Below, in pieces: positions 1-7,369 of a DNA stretch of 64,000 nucleotides. Under the pieces are notes generated by a model that did no database searches, was not told the origin of the DNA, and saw only the letters and a list, made by a program, of their open reading frames with translations. The translations under genes were made by a program, and so were the position numbers. The first letter of the stretch is position 1, and each line of letters opens with the position of its first letter. This DNA is from Deferribacter autotrophicus (GTDB lineage: Bacteria > Chrysiogenota > Deferribacteres > Deferribacterales > Deferribacteraceae). The stretch spans positions 248,001 to 312,000 of the forward strand of contig NZ_VFJB01000001.1 of the NCBI RefSeq assembly GCF_008362905.1, read 5' to 3'.

Positions 1-296
1 ATCACCACAATCTCTTCTCCACCAATCCCAACACCTTTTACGTCTACAATGGTTGTCTCCTGTTTTACCTCCTTGCTAGCAAGCTTGTATGGCTTTGTAA
101 TAGGTACAACCCTATCAACTCCTGGCAAATCCTCTACAATTCCAATTTCATCCCTTTTACCCCCAATCCCCACTAAACCAACTACATTTCTCTCTTTACC
201 ATAAATTACATGTGGAGAAAAACCTAGCTCCTCAGCTTTTTTACAAACATCTTCAAGCTGCTCCTTTGTTGCTCCAATCTTCATAACCACTATCAT
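1..296 (-). CDS. aroF: DAHP synthase (3-deoxy-7-phosphoheptulonate synthase), N-terminal part, cut by the window edge
   Basis: Only the first 98 codons are inside the window. The protein starts MIVVMKIGATKEQLEDV and continues with VVGLVGIGGKRDE, LPGVDRVVPITKPYKLASKE. This is the ferredoxin-like regulatory domain found at the N-terminus of Thermotoga/Bacillus-type (class I beta) DAHP synthases; the catalytic barrel lies outside the window. The enzyme joins phosphoenolpyruvate and erythrose-4-phosphate, the first step to Phe, Tyr and Trp. The ATG at 294-296 is preceded by GGAGG at 302-306. A terminator hairpin and a Phe/Tyr-rich leader ORF lie directly upstream, which supports the assignment and indicates attenuation control. 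The family assignment rests on the N-terminal domain alone. Confidence 0.85.
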   Translation of the reverse strand, partial: MIVVMKIGATKEQLEDVCKKAEELGFSPHVIYGKERNVVGLVGIGGKRDEIGIVEDLPGVDRVVPITKPYKLASKEVKQETTIVDVKGVGIGGEEIVV

Positions 297-316: not shown

Positions 317-354
317 AAAAAAAAAGGCCACAAGCGGTTTTGCCGCCTGTGGCC
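317..354 (-). terminator. Attenuator terminator of the aroF leader
   Basis: On the minus strand GGCCACAGGCGG and CCGCTTGTGGCC form a 12-bp stem (one G-T pair) around a CAAAA loop, followed by nine T residues and then the aroF ribosome-binding site. The 5' arm of this stem (342-350) can instead pair with 386-394 (GCCGCCTGT), which overlaps the end of the leader ORF, giving a mutually exclusive antiterminator. Confidence 0.85.
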
Positions 355-382
355 TTTATATACAATTACACCTTCACTGGCC

Positions 383-490
383 TCAACAGGCGGCACTCCT
401 CCACTTGCTATAAAAAAAGTAAAAGAAAAAGCTGTTAGATAGATCAAAGAAGGTTTTATTAGAAATATTGGTTAATAATTCGCAATTCAT
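383..490 (-). CDS. Phe/Tyr-rich leader peptide (35 aa) of the aroF attenuator
   Basis: A short ORF starts at ATG 488-490 behind an AAAGGG ribosome-binding site and ends at TGA 383-385. Its peptide contains TFFDLSNSFFFYFFYSKW: nine Phe/Tyr codons within 14 codons. The stop codon is adjacent to segment GCCGCCTGT (386-394), which is complementary to the 5' arm of the downstream terminator. A ribosome stalled on the FFFYFFY run would leave that segment free to form the antiterminator; a ribosome that reaches the stop would cover it and let the terminator form. This matches the established pheL/trpL mechanism, and the downstream gene is the first enzyme of aromatic amino acid synthesis. It was recognised by reading the frame, not by homology. 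Confidence 0.8.
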   Translation of the reverse strand: MNCELLTNISNKTFFDLSNSFFFYFFYSKWRSAAC

Positions 491-7218: not shown

Positions 7219-7230
7219 ATTTTCACACCA

Positions 7231-7346
7231 GTATCTCCTTTCCAAGTCGGGAGGCATAAGTGTTTCCACTTATACCCTGGGGGCAACTGCCCAGCCGGCG
7301 TATAAACCATAGCCTAAGCCTTAGGTTTATACACTCGGAGATATCA
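7231..7346 (-). ncRNA. Moco riboswitch (molybdenum/tungsten cofactor aptamer)
   Basis: Read on the minus strand, TATCTCCGAG opens the element and GGAGATA closes it (P1, 7 bp). A long hairpin follows with arms GTATAAACC and GGTTTATAC, then GCCGGCTGGGCAGTTGCCC, a GAAA-tetraloop hairpin (ATAAGTG/CACTTAT) and GCCTCCCGACTTGG. CTCCGAG, the GGGCANNUGCCC hairpin and GCCUCCCGACUGG are the conserved blocks of the Moco RNA motif known from E. coli moaA. The downstream genes (modCAB, two MoeA-family genes) are exactly what this riboswitch controls elsewhere. Direction of control is presumably repression by bound cofactor through the adjacent terminator. Confidence 0.92.
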
Positions 7347-7369
7347 ATCTAATTTTCAAACAACTAATA

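Follow-up and report, generated by a model that had tools for sequence, protein, structure and literature searches.

A predicted Phe/Tyr leader-peptide attenuator ahead of a DAHP synthase gene, conserved across the Deferribacterota

The genome of Deferribacter autotrophicus, a member of the Deferribacterota, encodes 2 copies of DAHP synthase, which catalyzes the initial step of aromatic amino acid synthesis, and the gene for one of them is very probably controlled by a ribosome-mediated transcription attenuator, in which a short leader peptide rich in phenylalanine and tyrosine codons is followed by 2 alternative RNA structures. The locus is situated on the minus strand at one edge of the 64,000-nucleotide stretch analyzed here (contig NZ_VFJB01000001.1, positions 248,001 to 312,000), which we refer to as the window and within which all coordinates are given. 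The leader, its frame, the position of its stop codon, the alternative pairing, the terminator and the promoter spacing were all conserved in the sequences of the related genomes.

The DAHP synthase gene starts with an ATG at position 296, is preceded by a Shine-Dalgarno sequence, GGAGG (302 to 306), and is cut by the edge of the window (1 to 296). The complete gene, present in L089 (9277 to 10296), contains 339 codons counted from this ATG. Its product matched the NCBIfam model for 3-deoxy-7-phosphoheptulonate synthase, type I-beta (NF006421, 512 bits), and belongs to the aroF/aroG class with an N-terminal ferredoxin-like regulatory domain; the closest PDB chains included 4grs and 1rzm, both of which are DAHP synthases with an N-terminal regulatory domain. 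A scan of a genome collection placed its nearest relatives in Deferribacteraceae and Calditerrivibrio. A search of 51 genomes from the phylum identified 2 DAHP synthases of type I-beta in each complete genome of families f1 to f5. The second gene in the 2.54 Mb genome studied here is located within a pheA-hisC-DAHP synthase-tyrA operon. In the 20 genomes checked, this second gene was located inside or behind coding sequence with no Phe/Tyr leader upstream, and the idea that it or its pheA operon has such a leader of its own was rejected. No leader peptide was found upstream of pheS and ilvB in the same genome.

The leader peptide gene, MNCELLTNISNKTFFDLSNSFFFYFFYSKWRSAAC*, is located at positions 490 to 383 and consists of 35 codons and a TGA stop, without a Shine-Dalgarno sequence. 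Codons 21 to 27 (430 to 410) encode the run FFFYFFY, and the sequence GCCGCCTGT (394 to 386) is located directly before the TGA at 385 to 383. Together with the stop codon and the adjoining GGCC, this sequence forms the putative 5' strand of the antiterminator, GCCGCCTGT-TGA-GGCC (394 to 379), which thus overlaps the leader stop. Further downstream, a hairpin of 15 bp (357 to 323) followed by a U tract (322 to 314) was recognized as an intrinsic terminator from its stem energy and T tract, and was the sole terminator-like site within positions 200 to 900. All of the elements that the earlier note had described here, namely the 35-codon leader with its FFFYFFY run, the complementary strand and the terminator ahead of aroF, were confirmed at this locus. 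The complementarity extended further than that note had it: the 3' end of the leader, GCC GCC TGT TGA, and the GGCC after it complement the 5' arm of the terminator over its full length (GGCC ACAGGCGGC, 357 to 343), with a second pairing block formed by the GGCC after the stop (382 to 379) and the GGCC at 354 to 351 of the terminator arm.

We infer the following course of events in the cell. The leader would be translated from a leaderless transcript that starts at its AUG. With an ample supply of charged tRNA-Phe, and probably also of tRNA-Tyr, the ribosome would reach the leader stop and cover GCCGCCUGU, the terminator hairpin would form and transcription would stop ahead of aroF. A ribosome stalled on the run, about 15 nucleotides upstream of the antiterminator strand, would leave GCCGCCUGU to GGCC free to pair with the emerging 5' arm of the terminator, and the polymerase would read through.

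The predicted energy was -28.3 kcal/mol for the duplex between the antiterminator strand and the terminator 5' arm, versus -27.0 kcal/mol for the terminator stem. The energy of the antiterminator duplex was equalled in none of 300 dinucleotide shuffles, and the region from 300 to 500 folded with a z-score of -3.2. The consequences of ribosome movement were modeled by treating the ribosome as a mask that was moved codon by codon, with the transcript truncated before the 3' arm of the terminator. For most of the 24 orthologous loci, the modeled antiterminator pairing was high while the ribosome occupied the Phe/Tyr run and almost vanished once it had reached the stop. The mean drop in pairing from stall to stop was 0.71, versus 0.18 with shuffled spacers (highest shuffled mean 0.28). 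The stop codon was located at or beside the antiterminator strand at all 24 loci, which agrees with the suggestion in the earlier note that it is placed to decide between the structures. In 2 genomes of genus g4 (L097 and L101), the modeled switch was weak and no better than in shuffles. Since the equilibrium fold of the full-length RNA favored the terminator in every ribosome state, the switch would have to be kinetic.

Swap tests that offered the antiterminator strand terminator arms from other loci showed little specificity, and as judged from the longest helix, in no family other than f1 and f3 was the strand specific for its partner. Covariation between the antiterminator strand and its partner was therefore counted in a fixed register. 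Three pairs had changed on both sides, and the score was 0.334 versus 0.253 (standard deviation 0.030) in shuffled alignments, a score that was reached in 1 of 500 shuffles. The 11 covarying cells with changes on both sides were matched in none of the 500. Because relatedness inflates shuffle tests, we preferred a control in which the register was slid, and the score dropped in every slid register. The covariation of the antiterminator helix in these alignments is modest but real, and weak in the g4 genomes. Taken with the duplex energy, it bears out the earlier proposal that the antiterminator and the terminator are mutually exclusive.

At 24 of 24 orthologous loci, representing 5 families, a leader with a Phe/Tyr run was identified whose stop codon lies on or next to the antiterminator strand, and a hairpin with a T tract is located between this leader and the structural gene. 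The leader was in frame at every one of them, a property on which the earlier note had made its reading depend. When a covariance model was derived from these 24 sites of families f1 to f5, it recovered exactly the same sites as strong matches (E<1e-8, with values from 2e-16 to 6e-9). The next matches were in G049 (6e-6) and, weakly, in G050 (0.003), both located before DAHP synthases of a family outside those used for building the model and missed by the protein query; the leaders in these 2 genomes are NNYFFGWYNMFSLR and NYFFYGWYITMVLRP. The remaining weak matches were at chance level. Diverged leaders that end with FWQFYFFS, FWQYYFFR and FWQYYFR, each with a terminator on the 3' side, were identified in 3 genomes from the other class of the phylum, where the start codons could be assigned with less confidence (GTG in 2 of the 3). 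No such leader was found in families f6, f7, and f9 where checked. It was also considered that Trp codons in the leader might track the presence of a single DAHP synthase, and this was dropped as a rule because one Chrysiogenia-like genome and G050 have 2 enzymes and yet Trp codons. A literature search that covered mostly papers available without subscription returned nothing relevant for the Deferribacterota, either on attenuation or on leaderless genes. The DAHP synthase attenuator appears to be conserved across the phylum, where it had apparently gone undescribed.

The codon composition of the leaders was studied in the T-richest 30 nucleotides of each leader, selected blindly with respect to frame (240 codons from 24 leaders). 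Phe and Tyr codons accounted for 81% of the codons in the leader frame, versus 40% and 39% in the other 2 frames. T was located at the first codon position in 214 of the 240 codons, A was observed 44 times at the second position versus 6 times at the third, and C occupied the third position in 79 codons and the first position in none. The contrast between frames and the occurrence of C at the third position point to selection on the Phe and Tyr codons themselves, beyond plain T-richness.

The earlier note took the leader to sense Phe and Tyr together, which may be so. It is a serious, if somewhat doubtful, possibility that a genuine attenuator responds to Phe only, with Tyr codons that are incidental or reinforce the stall. 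The 24 leaders contain 203 Phe codons and 67 Tyr codons in total, the leader in G007 contains no Tyr codon, and the aroF leader of Corynebacterium glutamicum, which carries Phe-Tyr-Phe, responds to Phe and not to Tyr according to the summary in PMC11802643. Against this stands the finding that Tyr codons are present in 23 of the 24 leaders, nearly all of them in or beside the run, and that A is concentrated at the second codon position. Moreover, enzymes of the type I-beta class are reported to be feedback-inhibited by Tyr and Phe, as for the Thermotoga enzyme.

Two other readings dispense with ribosome-controlled termination. An ordinary terminator of the ferritin gene located upstream in the same direction, combined with a chance open reading frame, would involve no regulation, and the AT-rich surroundings, where T-rich tracts give Phe codons by chance, make such a frame easy to obtain. 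However, a start codon and frame kept in 24 genomes, the bias between codon positions, a promoter at a fixed distance from the leader ATG, a covarying antiterminator, and an RNA model that leads to DAHP synthase genes in genomes it was not built from are all at odds with this reading, and we find it scarcely credible. It is somewhat less far-fetched, and still quite improbable, that the leader acts on the translation of aroF or on RNA stability, or that a protein or small-molecule sensor takes the place of ribosome-controlled termination. The folded 5' region might serve as a binding site for other factors, and termination itself is deduced from sequence. In contrast, a terminator with a U tract at every locus, a stop codon on the antiterminator strand, and the selection for Phe and Tyr codons speak for termination controlled by a translating ribosome, and no match to any Rfam family, including riboswitches and T-boxes, reached the gathering score at the attenuator locus, where the best sub-threshold matches scored 22 to 26 bits. 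We therefore retain ribosome-mediated attenuation as the preferred explanation.

The promoter suggests that the leader is translated from a leaderless mRNA. A -35 box, TTGACA, is located at positions 520 to 525, and its sequence (TTGACA or TTGACT) and spacing are kept across loci, being located exactly 35 or 36 nucleotides before the leader ATG at all 19 loci outside genus g8 (19 of 24 overall, including the window). This spacing would put the transcription start on the A of the leader ATG or next to it, and the leader mRNA is thus probably leaderless, with AUG as its first codon. The -10 hexamer at the window's own locus is weak and may be either TAAAGG (17-nucleotide spacer) or GATAAA (15-nucleotide spacer), at about 497 to 504. 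In the 5 genomes of genus g8, the distance between the box and the ATG is 50 to 63 nucleotides, and a Shine-Dalgarno-like sequence lies ahead of the ATG. It was also noted that, with both strands considered, promoter-like TTGA boxes at the leaderless spacing precede 5 open reading frames of at least 100 codons elsewhere in the window, versus none in Markov controls, so that promoters of this type may be common genome-wide rather than specific to the attenuator. The start of pheA (L140, near 6853) is similar, with TTGAAT-17-TATATT-6-ATG.

The earlier note had called this the classical ribosome-mediated design, and this holds for the leader, the terminator and the antiterminator; it does not hold for the protector (1:2) helix, which was not significant at the window's locus (shuffle p = 0.49), nor for the transcript, which is predicted to be leaderless. 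The enterobacterial pheA (pheL) attenuator has a protector helix. It resembles the locus studied here in having a Phe-rich leader and alternative antiterminator and terminator structures (Phe_leader, Rfam RF01859), but controls chorismate mutase-prephenate dehydratase, and the RF01859 model scored only 22.8 bits at the window's locus versus a gathering threshold of 55. Within the phylum, a protector helix inside the leader was significant in genera g6 and g7 (10 to 12 bp) and marginal in g8 and in one g5 genome. In the model without a ribosome, antitermination was obtained in families f1 to f3, including the window's locus (0.56 to 0.89), and sequestration in most of family f5 (0.00 to 0.41), with the exception of L106 (0.84). 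Since no significant protector is present at the window's locus, a terminating ribosome alone would block antitermination there. We tentatively suggest, as a reading with a little under an even chance of being correct, that the phylum contains a mostly leaderless family of attenuators that combine one sensor with 2 logics. Where the protector is absent, as in the window, an untranslated leader would antiterminate and only a terminating ribosome would block; where it is present, as in g6 to g8, an untranslated leader would be off, and g8 would combine the protector with a leader start that has a Shine-Dalgarno sequence. Loci with and without a protector, together with the leaderless starts, would offer a natural comparison for studying how translation initiates at the leader and how an attenuator behaves if its leader stays untranslated.

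The kind of mechanism is already known, and what is new is apparently its conservation in the Deferribacterota and the predicted leaderless start. The closest counterpart is the aroR-aroF attenuator of C. glutamicum, first listed in PMC4046766, for which stalling enhances transcription under Phe limitation (Neshat et al. 2014, as summarized in PMC11802643). This system shares an aromatic leader ahead of an operon with a DAHP synthase gene, but differs in phylum and in its much shorter aromatic run; its response is to Phe and not to Tyr. A survey of Shewanella also lists aroF with an attenuator that senses Tyr-tRNA (PMC2659441). For the leaderless start, the best parallel is the trpL-trpE(G) attenuator of Sinorhizobium meliloti, an alphaproteobacterium, where the 5' end of the transcript was mapped to the leader ATG and the leader peptide is leaderless (PMC7298713). 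The start at the ATG was mapped there and is predicted from promoter spacing here, and the S. meliloti system differs in its Trp codons and trpE(G) target. The ilvBNC operon of C. glutamicum, going by the title of Morbach et al. (2000) as given in PMC4046766, likewise forms its leader peptide without a ribosome binding site, no Shine-Dalgarno sequence being involved in the translation of this attenuator leader, but concerns branched-chain amino acids, another operon and another phylum. According to a survey from 2010, evidence for leader-peptide systems had until then come from Proteobacteria and Actinobacteria alone, to which the survey added a system in Firmicutes (PMC2965389). The occurrence of a predicted DAHP synthase attenuator throughout the Deferribacterota, and of a Trp-codon leader before trpE in the genome studied here, speaks for a far wider distribution of control by leader peptides.

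The trpE leader (L146), MMSSIFFNANLTSNFKAWWWTALDK, contains 3 Trp codons (WWW) and is followed by GC-rich, terminator-like hairpins; here too, the promoter, TTTACA-17-TATATT-6-ATG, hints at a leaderless start. A terminator-like hairpin was also observed between leuA (L150) and an upstream gene that ends with the Leu-rich sequence GLLLQLLKFL, the tail of which possibly acts as a leader for leuA, with the caveat that Leu-richness is frequent in membrane proteins. In other phyla (L028, L060, L070, L079, L083, L084 and L088), DAHP synthase genes are preceded by short open reading frames rich in Phe, Tyr or Trp codons, such as FYYYGYYYYFGGW in a Caldithrix genome and WFWWW in Desulfosarcina, and attenuation of DAHP synthase may thus reach still further phyla.

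Two additional features of the window were noted. A mobile-element-like repeat of about 240 bp (535 to 780) with terminal inverted repeats of the TGGAGTCACCCCA type separates the ferritin gene from the leader and ends about 10 to 15 nucleotides upstream of the -35 box. It has about 54 matches in the genome, a rough copy number given that 40 candidates were scored. One copy is located directly upstream of the pheA operon, and the repeat is absent from the leader locus in G010, which belongs to the same genus. Finally, a molybdenum cofactor riboswitch (Rfam RF01055, 93.8 bits) was identified on the minus strand at positions 7219 to 7352.
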